Shown piece by piece: positions 38,090 through 45,480 of a stretch of 64,000 nucleotides of DNA; positions within the stretch are counted from its first letter, which is position 1; every line of letters begins with the position of its first letter. The notes below the pieces were generated by a model. That model had not been told where the DNA came from. It was given only the letters and a program-made list of their open reading frames with translations, and did not search any database. A program made the position numbers and the translations under genes. The stretch covers positions 1-64,000 of the forward strand of contig CAIQWB010000135.1 of the NCBI GenBank assembly GCA_903875465.1, read 5' to 3'. The stretch is from an uncultured Verrucomicrobia subdivision 3 bacterium (GTDB taxonomy: Bacteria; Verrucomicrobiota; Verrucomicrobiia; Limisphaerales; UBA11358).

Positions 38090-38388
38090 TTCATTGTCTC
38101 CTATACGTGGGTGATTGCCGAATCTTGCACGGCATTTAAACAAATTTTTACCGGCGATTGGGTTGGCGCAAAACCACCTGGCGTTGCCGCCATAAGCAGG
38201 CCAGCCAGACTAGCGAATGAGCCACTAGGGGTAGCGATGCCAGTGCCGGCCAGCGCGCCCGAGCGGGTCACATGACCGCCAGTGGCAGCACCGGATCCGA
38301 CCTGAAATGGGATGACCGCAACCTTCACGCGGAGAAATTAGGTGCAATCGCCCATGGCGTCAATGTGACAAAGAAGGTTGTTTGGTAA

Positions 38389-38476
38389 ATCCAAGGTCCA
38401 AAGTCCAAGGTCGAAAAACGGGCAAAGGTACGATTAGGCACGATTAGGTACGATTAGGCACGATTCGAGGCGATTC
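38389..38476. repeat. Short tandem repeats: tccaaggtccaaagtccaaggtc and ~10-bp (g)tacgattagg units
   Basis: ggtacgattaggcacgattaggtacgattaggcacgattcgaggcgattcag read directly from the sequence. Confidence 0.8.
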
Positions 38477-38830
38477 AGCCGGGTTTAGCAACCAATCCCG
38501 GGTCAGGGGACCCGGCCTCCAGGTTCAGAGGGAGTTGGCTTGAAGGTCCACCCGCAATGGGTGGGGCGAAGGCGCAGGTGCGCGCAGGATTTCCCACCGG
38601 GCGGGAGGTTGGATTATCTTTTTATTTTTTTTGAGCCGGATTAACCTGGATTAACGCGGATCTAGCCGGACAAGTTTCAGAGAGGCTGTGGGCTTTAGGA
38701 TGTGGGCAGAAATTTTTAAACGTCCGCCAGGCGGGCGGACTATGGCAAAGAACCGGCCTTCGGATGGCATAAGCCATTGGCACCCGGACGAGTGGGTCCA
38801 AACTGAGCTGGCAATTTAACATCAGATGAT

Positions 38831-39030
38831 GAGTTGTCAAATGGGAATGGGGACAGGATGGGGCTGAACGGGCGCACTACGGCATCCGTTTGCTGGAACG
38901 TCTCGCTGAAGATCTGGCCAACCTGGGCATCCAGGGTCGGGACACCCGCTCGCTGCGGGACTTCCGCCGTTTGTATTAAATCTACCCACAGATTCGGGGG
39001 ACGGTGGCCCGCGAATTGGAACAACTCAGT
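38831..39030 (+). pseudogene. Decayed N-terminal fragment of a DUF1016/YhcG-type (PDDEXK-family) protein
   Basis: Frame reads QDGAERAHYGIRLLERLAEDLANLGIQGRDTRSLRDFRRLY*IYPQIRGTVARELEQLS: DUF1016-N-like pattern interrupted by a stop and not continued. Confidence 0.6.
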
Positions 39031-39083
39031 CTGGCGCCGTGCCGGGGTCAGGGTCGGGGGGCAGGTGCGGGTGGATTGGATCA

Positions 39084-39207
39084 GCAGAAGGTTTCGCGCA
39101 GAGGTGCCGAGGGCGCAGAGAAAAGCACAAGGTGGCGGGCGGCTGATGCCACCGAGATTTCCGGTGAGCGCGGCAATTATATGGCAATACCTTTGGCCGA
39201 CACCTAT
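39084..39207. repeat. Left diverged direct repeat flanking the DUF4143 ATPase gene
   Basis: aaggtttcgcgcagaggtgccgagggcgcagagaaaagcac...gagatttccggtgagcgcggcaatta...ccgacacct aligns with 40577-40701. Confidence 0.75.
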
Positions 39208-39280
39208 GGGCCACCAGCATCGACTGGCCCGATTCAACTTCTACCTTGCAAATCTGGCGGTAGATGCCAGTTTTACAAGG

Positions 39281-40453
39281 ATGTTAAGCCGCCATATTCA
39301 CCAAGAGCTGGTCGAGGCCATTACGAACAATCCCGCCGTGGGGTTGCTGGGGCCCCGGCAGGTTGGTAAAACCACGCTGGCACTGGCGATTGGGGCGACC
39401 CGGCCATCGCTTTACCTCGACTTGGAATCGCCGGCGGACCGGGCAAAATTGTCGGACCCGGAAAGTTACCTGCCCGAGCATGAAAACGAGCTGGTGATTC
39501 TCGATGAGGTCCACCGGTTACCGGAATTATTTCAGATTTTACGAGGATTAATTGACCGGGGGCGCCGCCGGGGCAAATCGGGCGGCCAGTTTTTACTCTT
39601 GGGCTCGGCTTCCGTTGACCTGCTGAAGCAGTCCGGTGAAAGCCTGGCCGGGCGCATTTCCTATTTGGAACTGGCACCGTTTGCCCCGGTTGAAGTCGGC
39701 GGTGACCAAGCGGCTCAGCTTTGGGTGCGCGGGGGATTTCCCGCAAGTTTTCTGGCCACTAGTGACCGGCTTAGCCGCGGCTGGCGGGAGGATTTCATCC
39801 GGACCTACCTGGAGCGCGACATCTCACAATTTGGCTCCCGCATACCCGCCGAAACCTTGCGGCGATTTTGGACGATGCTGGCCCACAACCAGGCAACGCT
39901 GTTGAACGCGGCCAAGCTCGCGCAAGGTTTGGGAGTGGACGCCAAAGCGGTGGCCCGTTATCTCGACCTGCTGGTCGATTTGCTGCTCGTACGGCGTTTG
40001 CCCGCGTGGCATCAGAATGCGGGCAAGCGGCTGGTGAAAGCCCCGAAAGTGTGGGTGCGGGACAGCGGGCTGGCCCATGCCTTGCTGGGCATTGGGAACC
40101 AAGAGCAACTGCTGGGGCATCCCGTGGCGGGGCCAAGCTGGGAAAGTTTTGTCAGTGAATCCTTGATCGGGCTGGCCCCGCGCGGCACGGAGGCGAGTTT
40201 TTATCGAACTTCCGCCGGGGCGGAAATTGACCTCCTCCTCGCCCTGCCCGGGGGGAAATTATGGGCGATGGAAATCAAGCGCAGTTCCGCGCCCAAGGTG
40301 GAACGGGGATTTCATATTGCCTGCGACGATCTGAAGCCGGACAAACGCTGGGTGGTTTATCCGGGTGATGACCGTTATCCGCTGGATGCCGATACCGAAG
40401 TGATCGGGTTATATGCTTTGGGGCGGCTGTTGCAGGCGGGGGAAGTGGCGTAA
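39281..40453 (+). CDS. AAA ATPase with C-terminal DUF4143-like domain
   Basis: NPAVGLLGPRQVGKTTLALAIG Walker A, LVILDEVHRLPELFQILRGLID, C-term TSAGAEIDLLLALPGGKLWAMEIKRSSAPK; start at MLSRHIHQ. Confidence 0.88.
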   Translation: MLSRHIHQELVEAITNNPAVGLLGPRQVGKTTLALAIGATRPSLYLDLESPADRAKLSDPESYLPEHENELVILDEVHRLPELFQILRGLIDRGRRRGKSGGQFLLLGSASVDLLKQSGESLAGRISYLELAPFAPVEVGGDQAAQLWVRGGFPASFLATSDRLSRGWREDFIRTYLERDISQFGSRIPAETLRRFWTMLAHNQATLLNAAKLAQGLGVDAKAVARYLDLLVDLLLVRRLPAWHQNAGKRLVKAPKVWVRDSGLAHALLGIGNQEQLLGHPVAGPSWESFVSESLIGLAPRGTEASFYRTSAGAEIDLLLALPGGKLWAMEIKRSSAPKVERGFHIACDDLKPDKRWVVYPGDDRYPLDADTEVIGLYALGRLLQAGEVA

Positions 40454-40576
40454 CAACATGGGAACGCGTTTTCAAATGGATACGGTTACCGAGCAAGATG
40501 GCGAAATTGTTCGAATGTATTGCCAGGGGAATCCGTGATGGGAGTATTGGTATGGTTGCGGGTGCCCGTCAGATAA

Positions 40577-40701
40577 GCGGAAGGTTTCGCGCAGAGTCGC
40601 CGAGGGCGCAGACAAAAGCACCCTGTGGCAGGCGATCGAGGGCACCAGGATTTCCGGCGAGCGCGGGAATTTTATTACAATACCATTCACCGACACCTTT
40701 T
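40577..40701. repeat. Right diverged direct repeat flanking the DUF4143 ATPase gene
   Basis: aaggtttcgcgcagagtcgccgagggcgcagacaaaagcac...aggatttccggcgagcgcgggaatttt...ccgacacct aligns with 39084-39207. Confidence 0.75.
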
Positions 40702-40874
40702 CGGATAATGCCCCCCAGGCAATCGCGGCTTTCCGGTCGTGCCTGGTTGTTCGGTCCTGAAAACCGGTGTTCGGAAGGGGGGAACTCAATGCGGGCTAAC
40801 ATCAGCAAACACTGCGCGGCCTCTAATTCCAATAGTATCCAACACAAACTCTACAACCCCTTAATCGGCGCCTC

Positions 40875-42359
40875 CTATTTTGTCTCGGAAGCTTCAAGAT
40901 TTAAGAAATTTGAAAAACCCATTTTAAGAAGCAAATCTCGGCATTCTTCCGCAAGCCGTTTTGATGAGGAACTTGCTAATCCCTGAGAAATTAGAGGGGC
41001 GATGTCCTTAAACTGGATTGACCAACGAAGTTCATCACTCGGCTTTTTAAGAAGTGCGCATAGCAGTTGCAACATTGCATCCAAACGAACTGGCATAGCC
41101 CCAAATTCACAAATTGTTTTTAATAGCCGGTATGAGTTGGGAGCTTTTTTTAACCGCTCAATCGCTTGCTTGGAGTGGGTAAACCGCCATTCAAACGGGA
41201 AACATTCGCAGCCTAGCCAATCAGTGGACTCGGAAAGTTCAGCCGCATATTCAGAAATTAGCGCTTCGTCCTTTTGGAGATTTTTTTTAATCGTTTCAAA
41301 TCGCCGCTCCCACAAGTGCATAACGCGAGCAATAATTTTTCCATCCAGCCCCTCATCAGGCGGCTTATCAAAAAGCGTTGCAATTTGGCCTATGACATGC
41401 GCACAGGTTTTTTTAGAAGCGCATGAAAAGAATTTATCCATCGCGGCTTCAGCATCTTTTACGGGAATTGATTCACTCCAATAATAGCAAGCTATATGGA
41501 TTCCAAGCCTTGATCCGAATTCCCGACGGGCATTTTTTGTGTCATTATCTACTTCTTTTTGCAATTCTCCCAATATACTAATCGCCGTATCCAGCAGTTG
41601 CGGAAATGTTTGTATGATTACATTCCACGGATGGTCGTATATGAAATAGGCAATTACGGCCGCCGACCGATGCTCATTTCGGCCGGTCGGAAATAAGAGA
41701 TCGGGTGCCCCTTTTAGCTTACCTCCAAAAAGGTGTGTCAGAAAACGCAATTTAGACCCTAAAAGGGCGAAAATTGCCGGAGACTCTTTAGGGTGCTGAA
41801 CCCGAGCGCGAATCAACTCAAATATCCATGGATCAATTTCTCTACCCGCATTTTTCTGACGCAAGGCAAAATTGAGCAGGGCTTCGATCATCTGCCCGCG
41901 AATGGAATTGATCGCAGTTGTGATCCAATCACCAAATGGATTACTATTTTCAGCCAACCGTGTGTCTTCCGCTTCAATCAAATTGCGTAGTAACTCGGGA
42001 AGCTCCTGGGAATAGGCGTCTGGCAAAGAGTAAGTGGATTTTAAGGAATCGCCCAAAAATCTAACCGTGGTATCCAACGACCACCCCTTCGCGACGATCC
42101 ATTTTGCGATTCCCATCCAATTCGCCCAATCGTTTTCTGATGGTTGAGTAACGGCTGGCTGGGTGCTATCAGCACCGGCTTTTAGGCGTCCCGTGGCGTT
42201 TTCGAGAACCTTGTTGAGTATATCAGGGCGGTGAATGTTCTCCCACCACCTAGTTTCAGGATTAAATCGGCTCGGATGCTTTTGAAGCAATTCAACAAAT
42301 TTTGCTGCAACTCCGTAAATATCTTGGTGGGCTGCTTTCAGCGGAGAATTAAAATTCAT
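40875..42359 (-). CDS. Large alpha-helical protein of unknown function (second gene of ATGA-coupled pair)
   Basis: 494 aa from MNFNSPLKAAHQDIYG; ATG overlaps the stop of the upstream gene (aaaATGAat); helical-repeat-like composition; NSIRGQMIEALLNFALRQ...PAIFALLGSKLRFLTHLFG...LLFP. Confidence 0.75.
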   Translation of the reverse strand: MNFNSPLKAAHQDIYGVAAKFVELLQKHPSRFNPETRWWENIHRPDILNKVLENATGRLKAGADSTQPAVTQPSENDWANWMGIAKWIVAKGWSLDTTVRFLGDSLKSTYSLPDAYSQELPELLRNLIEAEDTRLAENSNPFGDWITTAINSIRGQMIEALLNFALRQKNAGREIDPWIFELIRARVQHPKESPAIFALLGSKLRFLTHLFGGKLKGAPDLLFPTGRNEHRSAAVIAYFIYDHPWNVIIQTFPQLLDTAISILGELQKEVDNDTKNARREFGSRLGIHIACYYWSESIPVKDAEAAMDKFFSCASKKTCAHVIGQIATLFDKPPDEGLDGKIIARVMHLWERRFETIKKNLQKDEALISEYAAELSESTDWLGCECFPFEWRFTHSKQAIERLKKAPNSYRLLKTICEFGAMPVRLDAMLQLLCALLKKPSDELRWSIQFKDIAPLISQGLASSSSKRLAEECRDLLLKMGFSNFLNLEASETK

Positions 42360-44365
42360 TTTGGTTCCCATGTATTTAAGAACTCCCACAAGTCTTTATC
42401 GCTCATTGATTCGAGGTTGTCAGCTTCGGGAGGTGCGACGCTTTCGACCGCCCCGCCGACCACACCCCCAGAAACAAAAGGCCGATAGCTTTGAAGATTA
42501 ATCTTGCTGCCATCCTGAACTAAGGCTTTGAAATTTAAAGCTTGTTCGCCTCGGAGCAATGGCTCAATCGGCCATAATTGCTTTCGGCAAAAAGCATCTT
42601 TGAAATCCTCTATGATGGTGCCGTTCCTATCAACTGGGCCTGGGAGGACGGCCGCCACAAATTGCTCAACCTCTTTGGGCGAGAGGAAAGCATCACCATA
42701 TTGTTTTACATGCGCATGCAGAAGCTGCGCAAATTCGTAATCGTGACACCCACGACCGTAATCTATTTCGTTCAAGTAGGGGATTCGTTGAAGCACTTCG
42801 CTTCGGGCAAATTCAAGCGTAACGGATGGAAAATCTGCATAAAGCTGCCAGCGAACGCGGCGGAAAAGTTGGCATGAGTTTGACCGCAACAGGCGGTCGA
42901 GTTCATCTATGTCAACTGAATTGCCATTTTTGAAGATTTGTTCTGCCGCCAAATAGAGGCGCAGCGCCAAAATTCCCTCGACCCCCCTATGAAGCGCCGG
43001 GGGGCTTTTAAAATCCTCCTGCCAATAAGAAAACGGCGCATCCTCCGTAAGCTCAGTCGCTGAATATCGGCTTCGTTCCTGGGCAGCCCATTTGCAAAGA
43101 GCCTGAAACGTCAACTTGGCAACGTCCATTGGGCTTTGAACCGTCAATCGCCCTAAAAATTTTTCATCAACCTGACTTGTTAACCAGGCGTTTGAATCAA
43201 CTGAGTATTCCGAAAATGACAATTCGACCGCGCAATTCATGTATCCGTCGAGAATGGAAAAAATCTCAGGATGAACATCCAACTCAATCCACGATGAAAG
43301 AAGCTCGACTATCCAAAGCCACCCGGTGCGAGTTGGATTTTCCCCCAATTGGTTAATGAGCGGCCCAAGTTGTCTTATACAATCACATGAACGAATTTTT
43401 GCCATACATTGGAGAACTTGGTCTCCAATGGTTGAGTTATTCGGCAGTTTCAATTTTATTAATATGCTCGTGACCTCCTGGGGGAAAGCATCTGCCAGAT
43501 GCGTTAGCGACAATAAAGGCGGGTGATGTCGGTACACGATCTGACCATTTTCAGTTTTTTCAGCCTCGGGCAAATTGTCGAAAAAGGATTCTTGATCCAG
43601 CAAAGGAAGCCACTGGCTATTCGTCAATTTCTCAAAGAAGAATGTATAATTTGCGGTTTTATGTGAGATTAAATCGTTAACTCTTGCCAGAGTTCCAACG
43701 CTTGGCGGTGACTGCATTAGTTCAATCAATTCCTTTTGTTGAGCGGCGGTGCATGGTGTCAGATAGTTTAAAAGCAGAGTCTCAAAAAGTTCCAGTTGTC
43801 TTAAAAACTTCTCTTCGGCTGGTGTTGAATTGTGGTGGGCAACGTTTTGAAAAAAGCTCACCAAATCCTGAAATTCTGTGTCGCGCTCTTTTCGCCAGTC
43901 TTTGGACATGAAATCAGCTTGGGGATCAGTAGCTGTTAAGGCACGGCCGAATCGTTTGGTGCGAGGGGGTTCTTTGCAAAGGTTTTCAAAATTGCATAAG
44001 ATTTTTCCAAGCGGTTCAGATATGGTTTCTCCGCTCCATCCGCTTTTGTAAGAGACTTGCCTAATATTCAGAAATTGCGGGGCAAATTGTTTTAAAGTAC
44101 TAACTGGATTTTTAGATTCAGGAATATTTGAAATGATTTTCGGGATTCTGTCGCAAAGCTCACGAATTAAATGAGCGGCCTGAGCGACCTTATCGCTTGA
44201 TCTCGAATTTAGAATCTGGATGGCTCCTTCGTACCATTCATGTAGCTTCGCCCGATCTGTCGAGAGGCTTTTTAGCAATTCAAATACGTCGCTTTGCCGC
44301 CGGCCAAGGGCCAGCGGCAATGTTGTATCCCCTATTCCGAGATTCGCTTCTTTATTTTCTTCCAC
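42356..44365 (-). CDS. Large alpha-helical protein of unknown function (first gene of ATGA-coupled pair)
   Basis: 669 aa uninterrupted ORF in AT-richer DNA; begins MEENKEANLGIGDTTLPLALGRRQSDVFELLKSLSTDRAKLHEWYEGAIQILNSRSSDKVAQAAHLIRELCDRIPK; ends ESMSDKDLWEFLNTWEPK. Confidence 0.75.
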   Translation of the reverse strand: MEENKEANLGIGDTTLPLALGRRQSDVFELLKSLSTDRAKLHEWYEGAIQILNSRSSDKVAQAAHLIRELCDRIPKIISNIPESKNPVSTLKQFAPQFLNIRQVSYKSGWSGETISEPLGKILCNFENLCKEPPRTKRFGRALTATDPQADFMSKDWRKERDTEFQDLVSFFQNVAHHNSTPAEEKFLRQLELFETLLLNYLTPCTAAQQKELIELMQSPPSVGTLARVNDLISHKTANYTFFFEKLTNSQWLPLLDQESFFDNLPEAEKTENGQIVYRHHPPLLSLTHLADAFPQEVTSILIKLKLPNNSTIGDQVLQCMAKIRSCDCIRQLGPLINQLGENPTRTGWLWIVELLSSWIELDVHPEIFSILDGYMNCAVELSFSEYSVDSNAWLTSQVDEKFLGRLTVQSPMDVAKLTFQALCKWAAQERSRYSATELTEDAPFSYWQEDFKSPPALHRGVEGILALRLYLAAEQIFKNGNSVDIDELDRLLRSNSCQLFRRVRWQLYADFPSVTLEFARSEVLQRIPYLNEIDYGRGCHDYEFAQLLHAHVKQYGDAFLSPKEVEQFVAAVLPGPVDRNGTIIEDFKDAFCRKQLWPIEPLLRGEQALNFKALVQDGSKINLQSYRPFVSGGVVGGAVESVAPPEADNLESMSDKDLWEFLNTWEPK

Positions 44366-44456
44366 AAGAATTCAATGATCCGAATTTTCCACAACTCAGG
44401 ACTTTACGAGAATATGGCCAAGTGGTCAAACCATGATGAAATGATATAACGATTAC

Positions 44457-44645
44457 ATGGCTTCATTGCGGCTTCCCCGCGTCAAACGCTCGCCGGAAAT
44501 TCCGGCCTTAATCTTGACCGAACGCGACCGAGAGATTCTTCGCCATGTTTATCGTCATCGTTTTTACGTACGGATCATCTGGCCGCATTCCCCCAAATGG
44601 CCCCTCGCACTTCGGAAAGTCTGGTTGAAGGCGGAAATAGTTTAG
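44457..44645 (+). pseudogene. N-terminal remnant resembling a replication-relaxation-type (wHTH) protein
   Basis: MASLRLPRVKRSPEIPALILTERDREILRHVYRHRF then loss of the family pattern and a stop. Confidence 0.4.
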
Positions 44646-44717
44646 CTCCGATTGCGGCGTTATAACTGTGGCGCGGTTGTATCTCAACAACGCAAGTTTG
44701 GGCGCGGCTTGCCTGTG

Positions 44718-45282
44718 AAGGGGTCAGTCCTTGAAAAATGACAATAATTCATTTTCCCTCCTCTGCCGGTAGTTCAGCCAGGCTTTTTTTGAGTTGCCCC
44801 AAACGTCGTCCGGGCTGTCGCCGCAGGCGGCTGACCGCTTGCGTGACCCGCGTATAGTGCCCCCTCCCCAAGCGGGTGGCCACCCAGCGGAGGGATACCG
44901 TCGTCCGCTCCCGCAGCCACCAGGCCAGCGCCACTTTCTCCGGGGCGTCCTTCTGCCATCGCGCACAGGTGCCTTGCAACCATTTCATGCCCGCCACCAG
45001 ATTGCCTTCGGGTGTTTCCAGCAGAAGGTGATAATGATTGCCCATCAGCACGCACGCATGAATCCGCCAGCCGGTTTTGACCTGGGCCTCGGCCAGCGTG
45101 GCCAGCCACACCCGCCGGTCCCGGTCATCCCGGAAAATCGGCTGCCCCTGATTCCCCCGCGCCATGACATGATACACCGCGCCGGCATATTCAATCCGCA
45201 AGGGTCGGGCCATATCCCATCCTTAAACCCGCCGAAAGCCACTGTCAACCGCCAATTGTCACTTTTCTAGGACTGACCCTTT
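44718..45282. mobile_element. REP-type transposase element with terminal inverted repeats
   Basis: Left end aaggggtcagtccttgaaaaatgacaa (44718-44744); right end reverse-complements to aaagggtcagtcctagaaaagtgacaa (45256-45282); they flank the Y1-type transposase ORF. Confidence 0.75.
44749..45213 (-). CDS. REP-associated tyrosine (Y1) transposase, apparently internally deleted
   Basis: MARPLRIEYAGAVYHVMARGNQGQPIFRDDRDR, HUH motif GNHYHLLLET, C-term LAWWLRERTTVSLRWVATRLGRGHYTRVTQAVSRL; the segment between the two halves that normally carries the catalytic Tyr is not evident. Confidence 0.8.
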   Translation of the reverse strand: MARPLRIEYAGAVYHVMARGNQGQPIFRDDRDRRVWLATLAEAQVKTGWRIHACVLMGNHYHLLLETPEGNLVAGMKWLQGTCARWQKDAPEKVALAWWLRERTTVSLRWVATRLGRGHYTRVTQAVSRLRRQPGRRLGQLKKSLAELPAEEGK

Positions 45283-45480
45283 CAAGCTGCAAAAACAACG
45301 GCGTTTTCGGGTAATGTGCGGGTCGTGATTGATGGCGCGTTGTCCGATTACGACATACTCTCCATTACTTGCCTGAGCCCGGTTGAGCCAATTGTGATTG
45401 CCCGGTCAATTTCACCGTTGCTTTCCCCTCACTGTTAACCGGGGCGAAGCCGAACGCACCCAACTGGTCGCGAACCGGGT

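Follow-up and report, generated by a model that had tools for sequence, protein, structure and literature searches.

The two adjacent minus-strand reading frames A and B of the window (that is, the whole analysed stretch of 64,000 nucleotides) are, judging from their homologues, two halves of one ancestral protein of about 1160 aa that belongs to the DSR1 (defense-associated sirtuin 1) sensor family. In the reading that we regard as probable, this is an anti-phage protein in which a DSR1-type sensor carries an all-helical effector module in the place of SIR2, activated by a phage product, and which is split in the window. The features concerned are the following, with positions given in the window.

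42356..44365, minus strand: ORF A, 669 aa with a GTG start; N-terminal module and first half of the helical sensor; aligns over its full length with the front portion of single proteins from G010, Luteolibacter (L015) and G297
40875..42359, minus strand: ORF B, 494 aa from its ATG (504 aa if counted from an upstream GTG); C-terminal half of the sensor solenoid, HEAT/ARM-type, at PADLOC Dsr1 positions 852-1109
42356..42359, minus strand: ATGA overlap, 4 nt shared by the stop of A and the start of B, in a variable-length linker between the two solenoid halves
43619..44365, minus strand: uncharacterised N-terminal module, predicted all-helical, about residues 1-249 of A, in a slot held by SIR2, PIN_12 or a STAND NTPase in relatives
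42356..43618, minus strand: first half of the sensor solenoid, residues 250-669 of A, with profile matches and 57% identity to G010

Two reading frames from one ancestral chain

Neither frame contains an internal stop (0 in A, 0 in B), and their GC content is 0.459 (A) and 0.448 (B), the mean of 1-kb windows being 0.596 outside the island (s.d. 0.022, minimum 0.533) versus 0.462 inside. The AT-rich island at A/B is thus beyond chance, since it lies about 6 s.d. from the surrounding 1-kb windows, and all relatives measured also show a lower GC than their own neighbourhood. Coordinates, stop-free frames and base composition all agree with the first-pass annotation, which had described two intact ORFs (669 and 494 aa) with an ATGA overlap in AT-richer DNA. 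It had also seen no evident Walker or nuclease motif, and indeed no family of either kind passes its curated cut-off in A or B (Pfam, PADLOC, NCBIfam), nor does any curated family of Pfam or NCBIfam cover A or B.

In G010, a genome of the same genus, the C-terminal part of A and the whole of B form one open frame with 57% identity over both halves (the N-terminal part of that protein sits on a separate contig), and in Luteolibacter one protein of 1164 aa (L015:1757-5251) aligns with A and B end to end. The A/B junction is crossed unbroken in 18 of 18 homologues, including the haloarchaeal and Streptomyces ones; G297, G022, G500 and the members with other N-termini are all continuous at that place. 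The linker at the junction varies among relatives in both length and sequence and, compared with G010, no residue has been lost there, the frames of A and B lying one base apart. Since A and B match single proteins and all 18 homologues run unbroken, the split falls inside one ancestral protein, and the pair thus derives from the fission or break of one ancestral gene. The single-chain relatives rule out A and B as two interacting genes that are independent by descent, and the two-component design proposed earlier gives way to one protein that is continuous across the junction.

The split itself may be a functional fission, decay or an assembly error, between which one genome alone cannot distinguish. 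It is quite conceivable, falling a little short of an even chance, that a recent shift of frame disrupted a working gene, the window copy being dead or an assembly artefact and its ATGA overlap a coincidence: the split inside the sensor is seen in the window genome alone (0 of 18 homologues share it), the frame of B continues that of A by a one-base step, and the family seems often to decay, the G297 orthologue being interrupted by a transposase-like ORF (L028:1845-3059, ISL3-like by eye) and G023 retaining only a 70-residue match. Nevertheless, the 1163 codons hold no further stop or frameshift, the break lies in the variable linker and not within a conserved helix, and the amino-acid change relative to G010 is low and alike, with a pN of 0.28 in one half and 0.27 in the other and pS close to saturation, though these values average over the time before the split. 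That A and B form a genuine two-chain system, a fission of the sensor kept at a fixed ratio by ATGA-coupled re-initiation, appears rather unlikely, even though the overlap sits exactly at the linker and short-overlap gene pairs are normal in the family (e.g., 4 nt between the SIR2 gene and the sensor in G571, and the N-module and sensor of G500 and G022), since natural gene boundaries fall between effector and sensor, never inside the sensor, and no second genome shows the same split. In G022 and G500 (L012:7405-10945 and L060:6254-9815), the separate N-module ORF and the sensor ORF share about 30 nt, with the same relative frame in both genomes, which would represent either a conserved overlapping-gene arrangement or a frameshift.

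A helical sensor akin to that of DSR1

The sensor is a HEAT/ARM-like solenoid of about 900 aa, homologous to the C-terminal region of DSR1. The PADLOC Dsr1 model matches B with E=3e-11 (residues 98-366 of B against positions 852-1109 of 1227 in the profile), and relatives with 3e-44 (G022), 3e-9 (G010) and about 1e-21 (G538 and G572). Most members match this profile, although the G673 sensor and the protein of Luteolibacter do not when taken on their own, and beyond Dsr1 no PADLOC model gave a detectable match to the sensor sequence. Profiles built from the relatives recover further members in Verrucomicrobiota genomes, and a bona fide Dsr1 of the phylum (G418, 1410 bits) is recovered with the family profile. 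The AlphaFold2 model of B (mean pLDDT 88.7) comprises 27 helices and no strands, and its best Foldseek matches are HEAT/ARM solenoids, such as the PP2A scaffold and importins. The first-pass view of both proteins as all-helical solenoids therefore stands for B, while residues 1-256 of A are modelled as all-helical only at low confidence (pLDDT 69.8, with core segments above 90). The Dsr1 profile and the relatives in restriction-modification (RM) operons place the family where that annotation had suspected it, among sensor-type defence proteins. A housekeeping identity of A and B was considered and rejected, and an N-terminal NTPase is not a constant feature of the relatives.

With DSR1 (PADLOC Dsr1, PDLC04166) the window protein shares the homologous helical C-terminal sensor, spanning profile positions of about 300-1217 across relatives, and a similar total length (about 1160-1230 aa). 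Unlike DSR1, which has an N-terminal SIR2 NADase and acts against phages by depleting NAD+, it has no SIR2 but an unrelated all-helical module at its N-terminus (even with E allowed up to 10, searches of Pfam, PADLOC and NCBIfam show no SIR2 in A, and true SIR2 relatives score clearly), it is encoded in two ORFs, most of the relatives with the window-type (N-type) module being single, and its relatives are often found in RM operons. DSR2 follows the same plan of an N-terminal enzyme and a HEAT-type helical sensor (PMC11263360), but the window protein lacks SIR2 and PDB sequence searches with its sensor found no match to any PDB chain. Regarding AVAST/Avs and other STAND defence proteins, the kinship to their C-terminal regions that had been proposed from the sequence is supported by haloarchaeal plasmid proteins, in which an AAA_16 STAND-like NTPase precedes the same solenoid (G500 sensor against a Halobiforma AAA_16 protein, tblastn E=1e-19). 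However, the Walker A/B NTPase occurs only in these haloarchaeal homologues, and neither the window protein nor its Verrucomicrobiota relatives have one. The reading as a truncated STAND protein was rejected. The suggestion of a sensor missing its NTPase did not hold either: close relatives never have one, and the N-terminal 245 aa or so of A form a module in the SIR2/PIN slot.

Exchangeable N-terminal modules

What precedes the sensor differs among the members of the family. SIR2_2 is encoded as a separate gene before the sensor in G141 and G114, a separate SIR2-like gene is recognised by motif in G571 and G673, and SIR2_2 is fused to the sensor in G418, the full-length Dsr1 match. PIN_12 is fused to the sensor in G100 and G119, whose PIN_12-solenoid proteins of type I RM operons resemble the window protein in their sensor and its relatives in their RM-operon placement, but carry a PIN_12 nuclease domain where the window has its N-terminal module. 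On haloarchaeal plasmids the fused partner is the AAA_16 STAND-like NTPase; the proteins of about 1390 aa with AAA_16 and the same sensor type are encoded at L090:4889-9064, L091:4907-8998 and L094:4832-9022, and Haloferax mediterranei pHM100 encodes a relative of 1483 aa whose match to nSTAND5 is weak. Finally, the N-type module is fused in G010, Luteolibacter, G297, G538, G572 and G574 (the last at L059:7557-11132), and forms a separate ORF of 216-222 aa in G500 and G022. Profile comparison with hhalign links the three N-type subgroups (E=2e-18 and 1.6e-6), the direct relation between the window group and the G022 group being weak.

The maximum-likelihood phylogeny of the sensor mixes N-type with SIR2 members: either type requires at least four changes on well-supported branches, and the AU test rejects both the N-type members as one clade (p 1.3e-7) and the SIR2 members as one clade (p 1.6e-41, or 9e-5 without the long branches G673 and G418). 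The sensor of the SIR2-bearing G114 even nests within the window's own five-member clade, with 100/100 support; the long branches of G673, G418 and Streptomyces leave some placements unsure. The tree indicates that N-terminal modules have repeatedly been exchanged on the same sensor. In a literature search that covered few subscription journals, no paper on non-SIR2 effectors joined to a DSR1 sensor was found.

The N-terminal module of the window

The module of the window protein occupies the effector slot and is a candidate effector, uncharacterised and without a recognised family. A nuclease-like activity might be guessed, given that PIN_12 occupies this slot in some relatives. The more specific reading as an RNase, of the HEPN type or the pPIWI-associated-nuclease type, is possible but somewhat doubtful. 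It would fit an all-helical module in which R68 and H177 are invariant in 9 of 9 aligned N-type sequences, and RM operons have been described that contain HEPN domains (PMC3710099). A stretch of the module resembles pP_pnuc_1 (PF18165, a predicted pPIWI-associating nuclease) over 32-35 residues, with 14.8-18.1 bits and E values of 0.002-0.02, although this is below the Pfam gathering cut-off of 26.3 bits and the rest of that domain finds no match. Likewise, the N-terminus of G538 weakly matches PADLOC Csx1 (E=1.5e-4), in a stretch taken as the HEPN part. Against an RNase, the N-type alignment shows no conserved arginine 4-6 residues before H177, as the canonical HEPN Rx4-6H motif would have it, and Foldseek with the low-confidence N-terminal model found no significant fold match in the PDB or BFVD, HEPN folds of the PDB included. 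That the module serves as an adaptor instead of an effector, recruiting the adjacent RM complex or another partner, seems improbable: its embedding in RM operons with HsdS/HsdM and an all-helical build with no recognised catalytic fold would suit such a role, but the slot is the same as that of SIR2 and PIN_12, both enzymes, and the module also occurs where RM neighbours are lacking (the window, G022).

Genomic neighbourhoods

RM genes adjoin the sensor gene at 8 of 15 chromosomal loci, or 9 of 15 with the Mrr-type nuclease of G572, any enrichment being judged by eye:

Luteolibacter (L015): HsdS, and an HsdM-like fragment by eye
G538 and G574: HsdM, HsdS and HsdR
G119: HsdM and others
G100: RM neighbours by resemblance
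G010: MmeI-type IIG enzyme 93 nt upstream
G500: IIG enzyme and ATPase adjacent
G571: DrmMI/IIG-type methylase adjacent
G572: Mrr-type nuclease nearby

PADLOC/Pfam confirmed HsdS/HsdM/HsdR or type IIG enzymes at L015, G538, G574, G010, G500, G571 and G119, and those of G100 were assigned by resemblance. In the type I RM operon of G538, the gene for a PD-Lambda-3_B family protein (E=4e-78) separates the sensor gene from hsdR (L058:5072-5875). At the other six of the 15 loci, the window included, no RM gene or nuclease was found adjacent: none was seen beside G022, G114, G141 or G673, and the neighbours of G297 were not annotated further. In the window no RM gene adjoins A/B, the N6_Mtase genes of its genome being on other contigs.

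The window gene is an orphan that came in with an AT-rich island, inserted between dppD and dppF. Its surroundings contain the following features.

38370..45480 (left edge approximate): inserted island of about 7 kb, between dppD and dppF
44749..45213, minus strand: Y1 (IS200-like/REP-type) transposase ORF on the upstream side of the island (PF01797, E=2.2e-6, 28.2 bits, above cut-off)
38834..40453, plus strand: AAA_14 + DUF4143 ATPase gene in the same island, PADLOC candidate PDC-S01, co-located with A/B

The genes dppF and dppD (oligopeptide-transporter ATPases, window:37106-46437), which the island separates, are adjacent in G021, G022, G025 and G027, 1.15 kb apart in G012 and 7.3 kb apart in the window. 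The gap may be an insertion hot spot, because in G012 it is filled by other small genes. Two copies of a 127-bp dispersed repeat (39079-39205 and 40572-40698, 81% identical) lie around the AAA_14/DUF4143 gene, and a similar gene appears by eye within the type I RM operon of G119 (L030:2832-4001). Beside the island, a 755-aa ORF (window:46611-48878) has no Pfam match.

Beyond chromosomes, peptide patterns drawn from A, from B and from the Luteolibacter protein recovered no relatives in viral contigs; the diverse alignments of the relatives offer no stretch conserved enough for a pattern scan of these contigs. Plasmids gave no match for A or the Luteolibacter protein, and searches with other members reached only the distant haloarchaeal and Streptomyces sensors, plus unrelated stand-alone PIN proteins.

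Proposed mechanism and implications

In DSR2, binding of a phage tail tube protein to the helical region turns on the SIR2 domain (PMC11263360, PMC10973363). By analogy, the solenoid of the window family most likely recognises a phage product and, once bound, would switch on the N-terminal all-helical module, which in turn might act as a toxic enzyme that halts phage growth. HEPN proteins in RM operons have already been proposed as a second line of defence (PMC3710099), and the RM-operon placement of the relatives suggests a similar role against phages that escape or inhibit restriction. As for the window, the two halves could still associate, with their translation coupled through the ATGA, or else the copy has recently been disabled or was mis-assembled; it may be inactive, because it is split and has no RM neighbour.

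A wider proposal, held tentatively and with slightly less credence than its denial, is that the helical region of DSR1 would be a general phage sensor that has been joined on several occasions to one effector or another, among them SIR2, PIN_12, a STAND NTPase and the new all-helical enzyme class of the window, and that is wired into RM operons as a fail-safe, the window module representing a new effector class. The split of the window gene is also a caution, in that coupled adjacent ORFs may encode two parts of a single protein. SIR2 is what DSR1 has been known for, and here its sensor appears without SIR2, frequently within RM operons and in phylogenetically mixed combinations with no fewer than three further N-terminal modules. 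Should the sensor prove to be the conserved part, swaps of modules between relatives would make it testable what the sensor detects and how its signal reaches unrelated effectors.
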